From contig RYFE02000002.1 in NCBI GenBank assembly GCA_004138175.2, positions 248,001 to 312,000 on the forward strand: a DNA stretch of 64,000 bases, in the 5' to 3' direction. Source of the DNA: Chloroflexales bacterium ZM16-3. Its GTDB lineage: Bacteria > Chloroflexota > Chloroflexia > Chloroflexales > Chloroflexaceae. The first letter of the stretch is position 1. Each line of letters starts with the position of its first letter. The notes under the pieces were generated by a model. That model saw only the letters and a program-made list of their open reading frames with translations. It was not told where the DNA came from and made no database searches. Positions 49,588 through 56,995 of this stretch are shown piece by piece. A program made the translations under genes and the position numbers.

Positions 49588-49616
49588 TTGACGCGCCCTA
49601 GCGGCTATGGTATACT
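49588..49616 (+). promoter_or_regulatory. strong sigma70-type promoter before the argJ leader
   Basis: TTGACG (49588-49593) and TATACT (49611-49616) with a 17-bp spacer, the best promoter in the window. Expected transcript start near 49623. Upstream, 49434-49587 shows only the start-side region of the TlpA-like gene and no gene. Confidence 0.7.
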
Positions 49617-49656
49617 CCCGCAACGTCAGCGAGCGATACGACTAGAGGCAGACACC

Positions 49657-49716
49657 GTGCAGCAGAACAAGCTCCATCGTCAGCGTCGTCAGCAGCCAGC
49701 CATCGGCCCTGGCTAG
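49657..49716 (+). CDS. leader peptide, Arg/Gln-rich (19 residues)
   Basis: A GTG start (49657) with AGAGG eight bases upstream opens a 19-codon frame ending in TAG at 49714-49716. It reads VQQNKLHRQRRQQPAIGPG. Three Arg codons (all CGT) lie at codons 8, 10 and 11 among four Gln codons, just before a stem that can form or be blocked. A product function is not expected; ribosome position would be the signal. Given the arginine genes downstream, arginine is the likely sensed amino acid. Confidence 0.6.
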   Translation: MQQNKLHRQRRQQPAIGPG

Positions 49717-49742
49717 TCGCGCTTGCCCACCGAGAGGTCTTC

Positions 49743-49778
49743 AAGCCAGCTTTGCCAGAGCGCAAGCTGGCTTCTTTT
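49743..49778 (+). terminator. rho-independent terminator of the attenuator
   Basis: AAGCCAGCTT (49743-49752) and AAGCTGGCTT (49764-49773) form a perfect 10-bp stem with an 11-base loop, followed by CTTTTAT. Confidence 0.75.
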
Positions 49779-49799
49779 ATGCAATCAAGAATTAATTAT

Positions 49800-49842
49800 G
49801 ACTATTGACGATTGAATGCCTGGCATTCAATCGTCAATAGTC
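49800..49842. repeat. 21-bp perfect hairpin of heptamer type
   Basis: GACTATTGACGATTGAATGCC and its perfect complement around a single T. The arm splits into the heptamers GACTATT, GACGATT, GAATGCC. It sits between the terminator and the first gene of the cluster. Confidence 0.75.
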
Positions 49843-49853
49843 AACATTGAGCT

Positions 49854-50561
49854 ATGACACACCTCTACCTAATCCGCCACGGCGAGGCGGTGGCCAATGT
49901 CCAACCAATCATCGCCGGGATGAAGGGCGATGTCGGGCTGACCGAGCGCGGGCGACAGCAGGCGGATCGCCTGCGCGAGCGGCTGGCCCGCACGGGCGAG
50001 ATCGCGGCCGATGTGCTGATCTCTAGCACCCTGCCGCGCGCCCGCCAGACGGCCGAGATCATTCAGCCCGCCCTGGGCCTGCCAATCATCTTCGACGATG
50101 AGGTGCAGGAGCTGAACATCGGCGAGGCCGACGGCATGAGCAACGCCGATGCCTGGGCGAAGTATGGCCAGCCCAACTTCGACGCCGAGCCGCTGCGCCC
50201 GATCGCCCCCGGCGGCGAGAGCTGGGGCAGCTTCGCCCTGCGCGTCGGCCGGGCGCTCACCCGGATCACCCGCGAGCACGCCGACAAGACGATTGTCATC
50301 GTCTGTCACGGCGGCGTGATCGACAACTCCTTCATCCACTTCTTCCGTATGCCGAGCATGGTGCTGCCTCCCACCGACTTCCACACCCGCAACACCAGCA
50401 TCACCCACTGGGAGCAGGTAGATCGCCGTGGGGGTCTGCTCTGGCGGCTCAACGCCTATAACGATATCGAGCACCTCCACGGCATCGGCGCAAGCGAGTC
50501 GGTGCGCTGGGAGGACACGAATACATCCCACGCGGCGGGGTCGGTGCCGACGGAGGGGTGA
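49854..50561 (+). CDS. histidine phosphatase family protein
   Basis: A 235-residue phosphoglycerate-mutase-like enzyme. LYLIRHGEAVANV holds the phospho-acceptor His, and CHGGVIDN the second catalytic His. The acidic ELNIGEADGMS fits the family. Most such proteins are phosphatases of small metabolites; the substrate is unknown. It is the first gene after the leader attenuator and lies 52 bp before argJ, so it is expected to share the arginine control. Its link to arginine synthesis is not obvious. Confidence 0.82.
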   Translation: MTHLYLIRHGEAVANVQPIIAGMKGDVGLTERGRQQADRLRERLARTGEIAADVLISSTLPRARQTAEIIQPALGLPIIFDDEVQELNIGEADGMSNADAWAKYGQPNFDAEPLRPIAPGGESWGSFALRVGRALTRITREHADKTIVIVCHGGVIDNSFIHFFRMPSMVLPPTDFHTRNTSITHWEQVDRRGGLLWRLNAYNDIEHLHGIGASESVRWEDTNTSHAAGSVPTEG

Positions 50562-50613: not shown

Positions 50614-51837
50614 ATGAGCATCACCTTCCTGGAAGACGGCCACGCGGCGAGCCCTGCCGGGTGGGGGGCGGCGACGACGGCGTGCGGGATCAAGTACCAG
50701 GGCCGCGACGATCTGACGCTGCTGGTGAGCGAGCGGCCCTGTAGCGCGGCGGCGATCTTCACCACGAATCTGGTGAAGGCGGCCCCGCTGCGCTATGACA
50801 TGGCCCTGATCGGGCGCAGCGCCGCTAGCCTGCGTGCGGTGGTGATCAACGCCGGGAACGCCAACGCCTGCACTGGCCCCGACGGCGAGGCGGCGGCGCT
50901 GGCTATGGCTCGCGCCACCGAGTCTGCCCTTGGCCTGCCTGTTGATACGGTATTCGTTATGTCAACAGGAACCATCGGCGTGCCCATGCCGGTCGAGAAG
51001 ATCCTTGGCGGGATCACGGCGGCGGCCAAAGGGCTCGCCCCCGACAACGGCCCGGCGGCGGCCGCCGCGATCATGACCACCGACACCCGGCCCAAGCGCT
51101 GCGCCGCCCGCATCGATCTGCCCTCGGGCGGCGCGATCACCATCGGCGGCATGGCCAAGGGCGCCGGGATGATCCACCCGAACATGGCCACGATGCTCGC
51201 CACCATCACCAGCGACGCCGCCGTGAGCCCCGATGTACTGGACGCGGCCCTGCGCGCCGCCGCAGACATCAGCTTCAACAGCATCAGCATCGACGGCGAC
51301 ACCAGCACGAACGACACCCTGCTGGTGATGACAAACGGCGCAGCTGGCAGCCCGCTGATTGACGACATGGATAGCCCCGATTACCAGGCATTCATCGCCG
51401 GGCTGACCGCCGTCTGCCAGCGCCTGGCCAAGGAGGTGGTGCGCGACGGCGAGGGGGCCACCCGCTTTGTGACGATCACGGTGCGCGGGGCGACCAGCGA
51501 TGCAGACGCGAAGCAGGCAGCCATGACTATCGCCAAGAGCCCGCTGGTGAAGACGGCGCTCTACGGGGCCGACCCGAACTGGGGCCGGGTACTCTGCGCG
51601 ATGGGCTACTCGGGCGCCGAGATCGACCCCGATAAGGTGCGGCTCTCCTTCGGCGGCATGCCCGTGCTCGACGGCGGCATGCCGCTGCCCTTCGACGAGG
51701 CCGCCGCCAGCGACCTGCTCAACGTCCCCGAGGTGACGATCGACGCCGACCTCGGCCTTGGCGAGGGCGAGGCGACGGTGTGGACCTGCGATTTTGGACC
51801 GGAATACATTACGATCAACGCGGAGTACCGGACGTAA
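50614..51837 (+). CDS. argJ: bifunctional glutamate N-acetyltransferase / amino-acid acetyltransferase ArgJ
   Basis: A 407-residue enzyme that transfers acetyl from N-acetylornithine to glutamate, recycling acetyl in arginine synthesis. The self-cleavage site GMIHPNMATMLA is present, with the Thr that becomes the nucleophile. VVINAGNANACTG, KRCAARIDLPSG and DGDTSTNDTLL fit the family, and the C-terminal GADPNWGRVLCAMGYSG is conserved. Whether it is mono- or bifunctional cannot be read directly; the presence of a separate short argA nearby does not exclude either. The ATG is preceded by AAAGGGCATG; no strong Shine-Dalgarno site is seen. Confidence 0.93.
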   Translation: MSITFLEDGHAASPAGWGAATTACGIKYQGRDDLTLLVSERPCSAAAIFTTNLVKAAPLRYDMALIGRSAASLRAVVINAGNANACTGPDGEAAALAMARATESALGLPVDTVFVMSTGTIGVPMPVEKILGGITAAAKGLAPDNGPAAAAAIMTTDTRPKRCAARIDLPSGGAITIGGMAKGAGMIHPNMATMLATITSDAAVSPDVLDAALRAAADISFNSISIDGDTSTNDTLLVMTNGAAGSPLIDDMDSPDYQAFIAGLTAVCQRLAKEVVRDGEGATRFVTITVRGATSDADAKQAAMTIAKSPLVKTALYGADPNWGRVLCAMGYSGAEIDPDKVRLSFGGMPVLDGGMPLPFDEAAASDLLNVPEVTIDADLGLGEGEATVWTCDFGPEYITINAEYRT

Positions 51838-51941: not shown

Positions 51942-52691
51942 ATGGATCACCCCACCCGCATCCAGCTAGCCCGCGACCTTGCCGCGCGCCTTGCCGCAAC
52001 CTACGGCGAGCGGATCGTCGTGGGCGGGGTGTACGGGTCGGCGGCGCGCGGCGACGACACCGAGTGGTCGGACTTAGACTTGCTATGTATCACCAGGGGC
52101 GCGGGCGGGCCTGCCGGGCGCGCCTTCCTGTTCCAGGGCATCGCCGTGGGGCTGCACGTGCTGGATCATGCAGATCTTGAGCGACTGCTCACCCGTCCCG
52201 GCCCGCGCTGGCCCTTCTGGATGGGCGTGCTCGACGTGCTGCAGCCGCTGGTGGGCGACCGGGCGCAGCCGGGGCGCTGGGTTGAACTGGGGCAGACTCC
52301 GAGCGAGGCGGCATTCCACGCCGCCCTGGAGGCCGAGCTCCCTGGGCTGGTCTTCGAGTCCTACGGGCGCATCCGCTCGTGCGCGGCCCGCCGCGACGAG
52401 CGTGACGCGCCGATCACCGCCTGCGAGGTGCTCTCCGAGATGCAGACGGCCCTCTGCCTGCTCAACCGGCGCTGGGTGACGCGCGACTACTATGGAGGGC
52501 TAGAGCAGACCTTCAGCTTCCCGCTGCTGCCCGACGGCTACGGGCGGCTCGCCCCGCAGCTCTGGGAGGCCCACGAGCTGAACGAGATCGTGACGGCGGC
52601 GGGAACTCTGGTGGCCGGCTACTGGCGCCTGATCACCGCATGCGGGCTGAACGTGCCCAACTACCAGCGGGTCGATGACATCCCGCTGTAA
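51942..52691 (+). CDS. nucleotidyltransferase-fold protein
   Basis: A 249-residue protein. The N-terminal pol-beta-type site, GGVYGSAARGDDTEWSDLDLL, matches GS-x-G-x-SDxDL of nucleotidyltransferases such as kanamycin nucleotidyltransferase or MNT antitoxins. The rest is a helical C-terminal domain, longer than in MNT antitoxins. No HEPN partner is adjacent. Substrate unknown. It lies between argJ and argH on the same strand, separated by repeats on both sides, so it may be an insertion into the arginine cluster. Confidence 0.75.
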   Translation: MDHPTRIQLARDLAARLAATYGERIVVGGVYGSAARGDDTEWSDLDLLCITRGAGGPAGRAFLFQGIAVGLHVLDHADLERLLTRPGPRWPFWMGVLDVLQPLVGDRAQPGRWVELGQTPSEAAFHAALEAELPGLVFESYGRIRSCAARRDERDAPITACEVLSEMQTALCLLNRRWVTRDYYGGLEQTFSFPLLPDGYGRLAPQLWEAHELNEIVTAAGTLVAGYWRLITACGLNVPNYQRVDDIPL

Positions 52692-52937: not shown

Positions 52938-54317
52938 ATGAACCATAAACTCTGGGGGGGGCGCTTCAGCGCGCCAACGGCCGAGGACATGGCGCTGTAC
53001 AACGACTCGTTCCGCTACGACGTGCGGCTGGCCGAGTGCGACATCGTCGGCAGCATCGCATGGGCTAGCGCGCTGGAGGAGGCCAGGCTGATCAGCCCCG
53101 ACGAGCGCGAACAGCTTGTGCAGGGGCTGGGGCTGGTGCGCATGGAGTTCGCCGACGGTCGCTTTGTGACCCAGCCCAGCGACGAGGATGTCCACACCGC
53201 CGTCGAGCGTCGGCTGGGCGAGCTGGTGGGAGATGTGGCCCTCAAGCTGCACACCGGGCGCTCGCGCAACGATCAGGTGGCCACCGACATGCGCCTCTTC
53301 GCCATCGGCGCGGCCCGCCTAGTCGGCGACCGGCTCCAGGGGCTGCAGCTGGCCCTGCTCGGCCAGGCCGAGCGGCACGTCGACACGGTGATGCCGGGCT
53401 ACACCCACCTCCAGCGCGCCCAGCCGATCACCTTCGGCCACTGGTGCCTGGCGTACGTAGAGATGCTTGAGCGCGACCGGCACCGCGTCGAGGATGCGAT
53501 CGCCCGCGCGCGCACCCTGCCCCTGGGAGCCGGTGCGCTGGCAGGCAACTCGCTGGGCGTCGAGCGCGAGCGGCTCACCGAGCTGCTCGACGAGTTCGAC
53601 GCCGTGGCGGGCAACTCGCTCGACGCCGTCTCCGACCGCGACTTCGTGGCCGAGCTGCTCTTCGCCTTCGCCCTGACCGGCATCCATCTGAGTCGACTGG
53701 CCGAGGACATGGTGCTCTACAGCAGCGCCGAGTTCGGATTTATCGAACTTGCGGACGAGTACAGCACGGGCTCAAGCATCATGCCGCAGAAGAAGAACCC
53801 TGATAGCATGGAGCTTCTGCGCGGCAAGAGCGGACGCCTGATCGGCAACCTGGTGGGGCTGCTGACCACCCTCAAGGGCCTGCCCATGACCTACAACAAG
53901 GACATGCAGGAGGACAAGGAGCCCTTCTTCGACAGCCTCGACACGCTTGATCTGGGGCTGCGGGTGGCGGCGGCGGCGGTGGATACGATGGAGGCGAACC
54001 CCGCGCGCATGCGCGCATCCCTCGACGACGCGATGCTCGCCACCGACCTAGCCGACGAGCTGGTGCGGCTAGGCGTGCCCTTCCGCGAGGCCCACGGCAA
54101 GGTAGGCCGCCTGGTGCGCCGGGGGATTGAGCTGCGCCTGCCCCTGCGCGAGCTGCCCCTAGCCGAGTACCAGGCCGTGCAGCCAAACTTCGACGAGGGC
54201 GTCTACGCGATCTTCGACTTCGCCCGCAGCGTGGCCCGTAAGGATAGCCTGGGCGGTACCGCGCCCCAGCGTGTGAGTGAGCAGTGCGCCCGCTGGCGGG
54301 ACCTGCTTGAGAGCTAG
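52938..54317 (+). CDS. argH: argininosuccinate lyase
   Basis: A 459-residue enzyme that splits argininosuccinate to arginine and fumarate, the last step of arginine synthesis. MNHKLWGGRFS, HTGRSRNDQVATD and the flexible signature TGSSIMPQKKNPDSMEL with the catalytic Ser are visible. Length is normal. GAGGAAGG lies before the ATG. argG and argF are not in the window. Confidence 0.95.
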   Translation: MNHKLWGGRFSAPTAEDMALYNDSFRYDVRLAECDIVGSIAWASALEEARLISPDEREQLVQGLGLVRMEFADGRFVTQPSDEDVHTAVERRLGELVGDVALKLHTGRSRNDQVATDMRLFAIGAARLVGDRLQGLQLALLGQAERHVDTVMPGYTHLQRAQPITFGHWCLAYVEMLERDRHRVEDAIARARTLPLGAGALAGNSLGVERERLTELLDEFDAVAGNSLDAVSDRDFVAELLFAFALTGIHLSRLAEDMVLYSSAEFGFIELADEYSTGSSIMPQKKNPDSMELLRGKSGRLIGNLVGLLTTLKGLPMTYNKDMQEDKEPFFDSLDTLDLGLRVAAAAVDTMEANPARMRASLDDAMLATDLADELVRLGVPFREAHGKVGRLVRRGIELRLPLRELPLAEYQAVQPNFDEGVYAIFDFARSVARKDSLGGTAPQRVSEQCARWRDLLES

Positions 54318-54408: not shown

Positions 54409-54963
54409 ATGCCACAGTCCTTGCTGCTCTACAGCCCGCCCGTCTCGCTGCCCCGGCTCCATGCGCATCCCAACGCCGAGGTTGTCGTGCGCCGCGCCCG
54501 TGTGGGCGACGTGCCCCGGCTCTACGAGATCATCAACTACTACGCGGCGCGGGGCGATATGCTGCCCAAGACGATGGACCAGCTCTACAACCGCGTGCGC
54601 TCGGTGAATGTGGCCGTGGCCGACGACGAGGTGGTGGGCTGTGCGGGGCTGCATATCACATGGGCCGACCTTGCCGAGGTGGTGAGCGTGGCTGTGCACC
54701 CAGACTTCCAGGGCACCGGGCTGGGGCGGCGGCTGGTTGATCCGCTCTTCGACGAGGCCCGCGAGCTCGGCATCCCGACGATCTTCACCCTCACCCTTCA
54801 GATGGGCTTCTTCAGCCACCTGGGCTTCCACGAGGTGCCCAAGATCCACCTCCCGCATAAGATCTGGCAGGACTGTAAGACGTGCTTCAAGCAGGAACGC
54901 TGCGACGAGATCGCCATGGTGCGCGAGGTTGTTGTAGGCCGGGATGATATTCTGGAAAGCTGA
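54409..54963 (+). CDS. argA: short N-acetylglutamate synthase (GNAT type)
   Basis: A 184-residue GNAT acetyltransferase. The block VVRRARVGDVPRLYEIINYYA, then the acetyl-CoA loop VHPDFQGTGLGRRLV and FFSHLGFHEV, and the Cys-containing tail LPHKIWQDCKTCFKQ with CDEIAMV, are typical of short ArgA proteins (as in Mycobacterium). They acetylate glutamate or glutamine to start the cycle. The adjacent argH and nearby argJ support this. The pathway role is inferred from context. Confidence 0.85.
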   Translation: MPQSLLLYSPPVSLPRLHAHPNAEVVVRRARVGDVPRLYEIINYYAARGDMLPKTMDQLYNRVRSVNVAVADDEVVGCAGLHITWADLAEVVSVAVHPDFQGTGLGRRLVDPLFDEARELGIPTIFTLTLQMGFFSHLGFHEVPKIHLPHKIWQDCKTCFKQERCDEIAMVREVVVGRDDILES

Positions 54964-55069: not shown

Positions 55070-55183
55070 GCAATACCGCAGAAGTAACGCTGTGAGGCGT
55101 CCTGTCATTCTGAGCGAAGCGAAGAATCCCGGCCGGGACCCTTCGCTTCGCTCAGGGTGACAGCGTTACTTATGCTCTATTGC
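55070..55183. mobile_element. MITE-like element 10, abutting the insertion sequence
   Basis: A 114-bp element from GCAATACCGCAGAAG to GCTCTATTGC, flanked by an exact 8-bp duplication ctattttc at 55062-55069 and 55184-55191. The second duplication directly touches the left end of the insertion sequence. It is one base different from element 7. Confidence 0.88.
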
Positions 55184-55191
55184 CTATTTTC

Positions 55192-56995
55192 GCAATACCG
55201 CAAAAGTCGCCCTGTGAGGGAACGGATCATCTACCATCCGGAACTGTCCACCTGCCTGGTCTGCGGAGGCCCGCTGATGCTCGCCAACTACGTGCTTGGG
55301 GATAAAACGGTGCAAACCCTGACGGCGGTCGTGTCGGTCGCGAGCCGTCCGGCATTCTGTGCCGACCCGCAGTGTGCCGGGGCCAGCATGCGGCTGCGTT
55401 CGGTGGCCGGGCAACAGGTGGCCCTGCCCCACACGACCTATGGCTATGACGTGGTGGTGCGGATCGGCTGGCAGCGCCAGACGCGCTGCGCCACCTATGC
55501 CGCGATCCACGCCGACCTGACCCCGCAGATCCCGATTGCGGAGTCGCAGGTGCGCCACCTCTATCAGCACACCTACCTCCCCTTGCTGGCCTGTCACGAA
55601 CGGCAGCAGACCGAACATCTGACCCAGGCGGCAGAACAGCATGGGGGACTGGTGATCGCCCTCGATGGCCTCGCCCCGGAAGGTGGGGAGCCACAACGGT
55701 GGTGCATCCGCGAGGTGCTCACCGGCCTGGTGCTGCGCAGTGGCTGGTTGAGCCGCCAGGATCAGGCGACGTTCGAGGGCTTCGTGCAGCCGCTGCGCGA
55801 TTTCCCCTGGCCGATTCGGGCCATCGTCAGCGATAAACAGCGCGGCCTGGTGCCCGCGCTCGCGACCGTGCTGGCCACCACCCCGCATCAGTTCTGCCAG
55901 ACCCACTATCTGCGCAATCTGGCCGACCCGCTGGCGGCAACCGACTCGGCGCTGACCGTCACCCTGCGTCAGGCCGTCCGCGCGGAACTTGGGCCGTTGC
56001 TGCGCGCCGATCAGCCGCCTGACCCGACCCAACCGGGCGTCTTGACGATGACCGGGCTGCTGGAGGGCACCGCTCCGGTCACGGAGTCCCCCCCTGCTCC
56101 TGGCGACGCACCCGCACCACCGGCGGTCGAACCCGCCTGCCCGCTGCCCGCAGCAACGGACACCGCCCCGGTTCCGCTGGCATCCTGTGCCCACCACGCC
56201 CAGATCGCCGCCGATGTGGTCACACAGCTGCTCCGCCGGACGCGCTATCTGCTGACGCTCAAAGGGCGTCCGCCGCTGCGTCTGGCCGGGGTCGAAACCT
56301 ACGCCGGGCTGCAGGAGGTGCTGGCCCGAAGCCGTCGGTTGCTGGCCCATCGGGACGACCCGCAGCTGACTCGCCTCGTGCGTGGGCTGGAGGATGCGCT
56401 GGCATCGGTGGCCCCCACGGTGGCGGAGGTGCAGATCGGGGCCACCTGGATGGCGCGCATCACCACGATCTTGTCCGCCGCAGCCGAACCTGCCCCGACG
56501 GCCACGCAGGTGGCCCAGCAGTTGCAGGACTATCGCGACGAGCTGGAAGCGGATGTGACCGTGACCGCCCCACGGCTGGTGGCATTCCGCCAGCATCTGC
56601 GGAAGGTCAGCCGGAGCTATTGGCCGGGGTTGTTTCATTGCTACGACCACGTCGACATTCCGCGCACGAATAATGGCATGGAAAGCCTCTTTCGGGATAC
56701 GCAACGTCGGCTCCTGCGCACCACGGGCCAGAAAGGGCGCACCCGGCGCATCGTGCATCGGAGCGGGGCGTGGGAGGTGCTGTCACATCCGCCGACCGAA
56801 GCGGCGAGCCTGGAGGCCCTGCGACCGATTGCCCTGGCCGACCTTGCCGACGAGCGACGGCGGATGCGCCAGCATGCCGAACGTTTCCGGCTCCATACTC
56901 GTTCGCCGCGCCAGACAACCGCCCAACTTGACCGCTTGGAACAGCAATGGTTGGCCCTGCCCCCAACCACGACAGGGTGAGTTTTGCGGTATTGC
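55192..56995 (+). mobile_element. insertion sequence, 1.8 kb, single transposase
   Basis: Ends GCAATACCGCAAAAGTCGCC (left) and GCAATACCGCAAAACTCACC (right, as complement): a terminal inverted repeat of about 24 bp with four or fewer mismatches. The MITE elements carry versions of the same ends. Immediate flanks ctattttc and ccttttac match at only 5 of 8, so the original duplication may have been altered when element 10 inserted next to it. Family not assigned; 8-bp duplications in the MITEs fit several DDE families. Confidence 0.85.
55214..56980 (+). CDS. DDE-type transposase with N-terminal zinc-binding region
   Basis: A 588-residue transposase. Cys pairs in CLVCGGPL and CADPQCAG suggest a zinc-binding DNA-recognition module. 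The catalytic pattern appears as Asp in VIALDGLAPE, Asp in IVSDKQRGL (followed by FCQTHYLRNL, a C-x2-H-like feature), and Glu in NNGMESLFRDTQRR. A variable Pro/Ala-rich segment lies near residues 275-320. The GTG start at 55214 is inside the element; the frame is open leftward through MITE 10, but that is not expected to be translated. The stop codon is inside the right terminal repeat. It looks intact and possibly active. Confidence 0.82.
   Translation: MRERIIYHPELSTCLVCGGPLMLANYVLGDKTVQTLTAVVSVASRPAFCADPQCAGASMRLRSVAGQQVALPHTTYGYDVVVRIGWQRQTRCATYAAIHADLTPQIPIAESQVRHLYQHTYLPLLACHERQQTEHLTQAAEQHGGLVIALDGLAPEGGEPQRWCIREVLTGLVLRSGWLSRQDQATFEGFVQPLRDFPWPIRAIVSDKQRGLVPALATVLATTPHQFCQTHYLRNLADPLAATDSALTVTLRQAVRAELGPLLRADQPPDPTQPGVLTMTGLLEGTAPVTESPPAPGDAPAPPAVEPACPLPAATDTAPVPLASCAHHAQIAADVVTQLLRRTRYLLTLKGRPPLRLAGVETYAGLQEVLARSRRLLAHRDDPQLTRLVRGLEDALASVAPTVAEVQIGATWMARITTILSAAAEPAPTATQVAQQLQDYRDELEADVTVTAPRLVAFRQHLRKVSRSYWPGLFHCYDHVDIPRTNNGMESLFRDTQRRLLRTTGQKGRTRRIVHRSGAWEVLSHPPTEAASLEALRPIALADLADERRRMRQHAERFRLHTRSPRQTTAQLDRLEQQWLALPPTTTG

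Follow-up and report, generated by a model that had tools for sequence, protein, structure and literature searches.

A probable ribosome-mediated transcription attenuator ahead of arginine biosynthesis genes in Chloroflexales, with a lysine-codon sister element

Leader architecture and the arginine cluster

The window analyzed here is a 64,000-nucleotide stretch of the Chloroflexales bacterium ZM16-3 genome (contig RYFE02000002.1). Read from its sequence, the interval 49588-49780 consists of a promoter, a leader open reading frame (ORF) and a T-tailed terminator, and it lies 5' of a cluster of arginine genes. The features of the element and of the genes that follow it are:

49588-49616, + strand: promoter, with -35 box TTGACG, a 17-nt spacer and TGGTATACT; extended -10 form TGG-TATACT
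49644-49648, + strand: Shine-Dalgarno-like AGAGG, 8 nt ahead of the leader GTG, as read from sequence
49657-49716, + strand: leader peptide ORF, MQQNKLHRQRRQQPAIGPG-stop, 19 codons, GTG start at 49657 and TAG stop at 49714-49716
49678-49689, + strand: Arg box, putative regulatory codons CGT CAG CGT CGT
49694-49714, + strand: first hairpin (segments 1:2), AGCCAG 49694-49699 with CTGGCT 49709-49714, overlapping the last codons and the stop
49709-49758, + strand: antiterminator, CTGGC 49709-49713 with GCCAG 49754-49758, AGT 49715-49717 with GCT 49749-49751, and GCTTG 49721-49725 with CAAGC 49742-49746
49743-49779, + strand: intrinsic terminator, 10-bp stem of AAGCCAGCTT (49743-49752) and AAGCTGGCTT (49764-49773) with a CTTTTA tail
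49854-50561, + strand: histidine phosphatase (PGM-like) gene, first in the operon (Pfam PF00300)
50614-51837, + strand: argJ (NCBIfam NF003802 / TIGR00120, above cut-off)
51942-52691, + strand: nucleotidyltransferase-like gene inside the cluster, with a weak match, far below cut-off, to ANT(4')-I-like aminoglycoside enzymes
52938-54317, + strand: argH (TIGR00838, above cut-off)
54409-54963, + strand: argA-like N-acetyltransferase (NF005840, N-acetyltransferase, above cut-off; NF005921, amino-acid N-acetyltransferase, below its cut-off)

Much of this anatomy had been proposed in a preliminary description made from the letters alone. Its promoter is present in the extended -10 form, and its 19-codon frame does hold three CGT codons (49678, 49684 and 49687, which are codons 8, 10 and 11), although the CAG codons number five rather than four. 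It had also placed the first stem over the last codons and the competing strand over the stop, in agreement with a 3' arm of stem 1:2 that takes in the T of TAG. The argJ, argH and argA genes it named downstream were matched by profiles as listed above. The start of the cluster needs amending, in that argJ is preceded by the phosphatase gene in the window and argG is the first gene in most relatives.

Several other features were noted in and around the cluster. The nucleotidyltransferase-like gene has a homolog in a related genome (L098), and a long ORF (607 aa; 55157-56980) 3' of argA is transposase-like by eye. Between the terminator and the first gene, at 49794-49848, lies a 27-nt, 93% inverted repeat that recurs at another site of the genome as an 80% copy, while the sister genome G004 carries a different inverted repeat at the equivalent spot.

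The gene upstream of the element is on the opposite strand, and the terminator is thus not that of the upstream gene. The single-sequence fold of the element is modestly unusual against shuffled sequence (z = -2.0), and one terminator-like pattern was found where 1.1 were expected by chance, the chance rate being about one per 2.5 kb. Since the fold is only mildly better than that of shuffled sequence, the case for the element rests on comparison. No Rfam family reached its gathering threshold anywhere in the window, with T-box, lysine riboswitch and other Rfam families unmatched, and a permissive scan of the region returned only chance matches of microRNA, sRNA and ribozyme type, all below gathering.

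Conservation and pairing among relatives

By plain DNA comparison, 27 of 100 related genomes, all in one family, matched part of a 301-nt query; in 26 the match fell within the element, and in the other (G007) it covered the downstream inverted repeat only. Inspection of argG upstream regions from 81 genomes, and of other loci, yielded 36 alignable Arg-type copies from 35 Chloroflexales genomes, including family f2 and one f3 genome (G063). These are placed 5' of argG, the first gene in most genomes, or of the phosphatase-argJ pair. In the regions before argG, the leader was not found in Roseiflexus-like genomes, nor in Herpetosiphon-like genomes except G063. Extra copies with Arg codons occur 5' of argC in an Ardenticatena MAG and in another Chloroflexota genome (G489).

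All 36 elements encode, in frame, an Arg-rich short peptide of the form R-rich...QPxxx(P/S)G-stop, and the Gly-stop holds a common position relative to the stems in 35 of them, the stop of G063 lying 15 nt earlier. In the 14 codons that precede the hairpin, each element has 3-7 Arg codons, the last of them 21-33 nt from the stop; they are mainly CGT (117) and CGC (33). The window leader, with its GTG start and three Arg codons, is among the weaker ones. Its promoter form recurs in 28 of the 36 elements and a Shine-Dalgarno-like motif in 29 of the 36 leaders. At two loci (L034 and L041, in G047 and G053) only some 10 nt separate the -10 box from the leader ATG, which suggests that the peptide of family f2 may be translated leaderless. 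Another locus (L097, G040:C607) has two Arg elements in tandem, 1.8 kb apart, with the phosphatase gene and argJ directly after the second only. In five genomes lacking an argG leader (G011, G014, G019, G022 and G029; L045, L092, L051, L064 and L048), a tRNA gene and then a terminator were seen instead, by eye.

RNAalifold did not recover most stems from the MAFFT alignment, since the terminators of distant families are out of register there, and the named structures were counted instead. In alignment A1 the terminator was paired in 84.5% of cells, against at most 66% in slid controls, and 5 of its 10 pairs showed two-sided changes. The antiterminator reached 88.0% (A1) and 90.5% of cells, with two-sided changes at 4 of 13 pairs in A1, where slid controls stayed at or below 58%. 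For the first hairpin the values were 91.9% and 95.8% (A1 and A2; slid controls at most 52% in A1 and 55% overall); its covariation did not rise above that of shuffles, in tests that leave relatedness in. All three pairings weakened when partners were exchanged between 26 representatives: with relatedness likewise left in, the observed mean was reached in 76 of 20000 permutations for 1:2 and in 0 of 20000 for both 2:3 and 3:4. The comparison proposed in the preliminary description bears it out: Arg-rich frame, stop position and competing stems all persist in related genomes, with compensatory changes in the antiterminator and the terminator.

Folding extends the antiterminator well beyond the 2:3 stem of the preliminary description. 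In the folded elements, segment 2 (CUGGC, which includes the last sense codon) is paired with GCCAG on the loop side of the terminator, and the GCUUG conserved 3' of the stop with CAAGC, at the base of the terminator 5' arm. This extended form is predicted in nearly all 36 elements for the RNA that a ribosome halted on the last Arg codon would leave uncovered, G021 and G036 differing. The first hairpin is weak, at -8 to -10 kcal/mol in many elements. An RNA-polymerase pause site had been considered as the reason for the conserved GCTTG; folding assigns the motif to the antiterminator strand, where a pause may still occur.

The modelled structures depend on the position of the ribosome. Averaged over the 36 elements, a ribosome at the stop codon gives a predicted terminator probability of 0.96 and a stalled one 0.46, and the terminator 5' arm is predicted to be sequestered before the 3' arm is made at 0.79 (stalled) versus 0.26 (stop codon). 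Untranslated RNA has a mean modelled termination probability of 0.42, such that antitermination is predicted in many genomes, unlike trp. For the window's own stalled RNA the terminator is still favored at equilibrium (0.90 in the model), and the switch there must therefore be kinetic, acting during transcription as in trp.

Codon identity, the shared scaffold and the likely signal

R1, a covariance model built on the Arg elements, matched 55 of the 158 genomes of the class at E<=0.01, a figure that includes Lys-type copies and two chance matches; the matches in G124 and G149 had no convincing leader and were counted as chance, as was L205 from a separate search. The same search revealed a second, related element in the same genomes, which has no Arg box and carries Lys codons (SKQVKRxKKPAxRSG-stop). 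It sits 5' of homocitrate synthase, homoaconitase or lysX, genes of the alpha-aminoadipate lysine pathway, and is the only type in Roseiflexus-like genomes. The window's own genome has such a copy, MFIIISKQVKRTEKPAQRPG, before homocitrate synthase (G000:C123:213-302; L128 / L212).

Codon identity tracks the pathway downstream. Per 10 codons, the averages are 4.60 Arg and 0.11 Lys in Arg elements, against 0.85 Arg and 3.77 Lys in those ahead of lysine genes; in all 61 elements (35/0 and 0/26) the commoner basic codon agrees with the pathway encoded downstream. Wherever the next gene of an Arg-type element was seen, it was an arginine gene.

These figures bear on whether an attenuator of the same kind might instead sense glutamine through its CAG codons, which the preliminary description had left open while favoring arginine. 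The window leader has five CAG codons, and Gln-rich leaders (QRQQ..SG-stop) stand on the same scaffold before LysE-type exporters in other Chloroflexota (L149, L160, L161, L162, L163, L174, L204 and L207); we have no explanation for an exporter behind a starvation switch. Against this, relatives with the same downstream genes hold only 1.17 Gln per 10 codons beside their 4.60 Arg, and CAG is about equally common in Lys-type leaders (1.46), so that it belongs to the scaffold. Arg codons climb to 4-7 in relatives with no such rise in CAG, the Lys paralog with similar CAG content precedes lysine genes, and the genes downstream of the Arg type are arginine genes. Arginine is accordingly the favored signal, and a glutamine sensor appears very unlikely.

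The Arg and Lys elements, aligned together (A2), share GGYTAG, GCTTG and CCAG. The common scaffold reads TGGYTAG, about four bases, GCTTG, and then CCAG in the terminator, with the pairing kept in copies of both types. Compensatory changes in the terminator and antiterminator are seen between Arg and Lys copies as well, and the antiterminator pair 21:70 of A2 occurs as UA 18, CG 12 and UG 8 times. A joint model (R2) had matches at E<=0.02 in 73 of the 158 class genomes, the few weakest probably by chance, and matches in 36 of 400 genomes in a phylum sample; against window 49693-49778 it gave E = 7.8e-17, with the window copy in its training set. Scanned for the exact pattern, 84,980 genomes yielded 24 matches. 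Twenty-three are titled as Chloroflexota or as genera or orders of that phylum, and the remaining one, titled only 'bacterium', has an element identical to that of G047 in the same order. Ambiguous scaffold matches were L164 (before glutamyl-tRNA synthetase) and L187/L190.

Pairing alone does not demand shared letters, and common descent of the Arg and Lys scaffolds therefore seems likelier than convergence. A broader proposal, that one ancestral Chloroflexota scaffold was copied and re-aimed by codon-box swaps alone (Arg, Lys or Gln) into a modular sensor family replacing a missing ArgR, seems to us evenly balanced. ArgR (PF01316) was not found in any of the 100 relatives, the control being positive in 9 of 14 genomes.

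The sister elements also bear on an arrest peptide, in which the nascent chain would bind free arginine and stall at the stop, like TnaC or the fungal arginine attenuator peptide. The peptide C-terminus, (Q/K)Px..(P/S)G-stop, is conserved as such a sensor might require, but its residues are encoded by hairpin bases and their conservation is thereby explained by RNA pairing. The number and spacing of Arg vary, and the Lys paralog has the same C-terminus with a different codon box, making a free-arginine sensor highly improbable. The least probable reading we weighed is an unregulated leader, with a spurious ORF and a terminator that only lowers basal transcription. The chance frequency of terminator-like patterns speaks for it; pathway-matched Arg and Lys codons, the conserved stop position and compensatory antiterminator and terminator changes across families speak against it. 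Compared across relatives, the element is raised above chance by its conservation, its compensatory changes and its conserved promoter.

Proposed mechanism, operon history and known systems

The element is very probably a ribosome-mediated transcription attenuator of the arginine operon, similar to those of trp and his. As in that type, it has a leader ORF with end-product codons, an intrinsic terminator before the first gene and an antiterminator that excludes the terminator. From this anatomy, its conservation and compensatory changes, the codon-pathway match and the predicted state dependence, we infer the start site, the stalling and the response to arginine that follow. Transcription would start at about 49623 and a ribosome would load on the leader. 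With ample Arg-tRNA, it would pass the CGT codons to the stop and cover segment 2 (CUGGCUAG) and the following GCUUG; the terminator (49743-49773) would then form and transcription would end near 49779. With scarce Arg-tRNA, the ribosome would stall on the CGT codons and cover segment 1, leaving segment 2 and GCUUG free to pair with the terminator 5' arm and loop, and polymerase would continue into the phosphatase gene, argJ, argH and argA.

The operon itself has changed behind this leader. Candidatus Oscillochloris fontis, a genus-mate, has the gene order attenuator-argG-phosphatase-argJ-argH-argA. The window shares with 13 other genomes a different arrangement, in which the phosphatase gene and argJ directly follow the attenuator and argG is found elsewhere; this argG is of the type matched to model positions 392-393 (only a fragment in G040). 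The two argG proteins within the genus share 32% identity, and the native type has 79% identity with that of another genus. From placement and identities, the native argG appears to have been replaced by a distant argG and lost, with the attenuator staying before the remaining operon. The attenuator would thus have outlived the gene it first controlled.

Among known systems, the trp and his attenuators of Enterobacteria and Actinobacteria share with the element the end-product codons, mutually exclusive 1:2, 2:3 and 3:4 pairings, an intrinsic terminator and a biosynthetic operon. They differ from it in signal, and the window element has a long bipartite antiterminator with GCUUG after the stop and a weak 1:2 hairpin. 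Tsubouchi and colleagues reportedly described, in 2005, leader-peptide attenuation of the lysine gene cluster of Thermus thermophilus. This resembles our Lys sister in having Lys codons before alpha-aminoadipate lysine genes; it belongs to another phylum, and the likeness is one of described layout. We know of no arginine counterpart of the Thermus leader. The fungal arginine attenuator peptide is an arginine-responsive upstream peptide before an arginine pathway gene, but it acts by eukaryotic translational arrest in response to free arginine and involves no transcription terminator.

In Actinobacteria, a survey turned up no RNA element conserved ahead of arginine or lysine operons (PMC1262725). 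Among bacterial arginine-codon leaders, the nearest we found is orf34-speF of Salmonella, a leader ORF in which a run of consecutive Arg codons senses arginine and alters mRNA folding (PMC6386406). It differs in controlling ornithine decarboxylase through Rho, access to the ribosome-binding site and RNase G, in having no intrinsic terminator, and in its 34-codon ORF from another family (PMC6386406). Beyond speF, our literature search (subscription papers lay outside its scope, and novelty is provisional to that extent) returned no arginine attenuator in bacteria or Chloroflexota and no arginine-codon, intrinsic-terminator attenuator of bacterial arginine genes, in line with the preliminary description, which knew of no arginine leader of this form in the phylum.

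If the reading is correct, a bacterial order in which no ArgR was found would have a regulator for its arginine synthesis, and arginine would join the amino acids that bacteria sense through attenuation at an intrinsic terminator. It would also be a rare case of homologous-looking attenuators for different amino acids, in which codon swapping as a route to new sensors could be examined directly. Provisionally, then, what is new here is the arginine signal and a sister scaffold shared by Arg and Lys, perhaps also Gln, on a mechanism that otherwise resembles those of trp and his.
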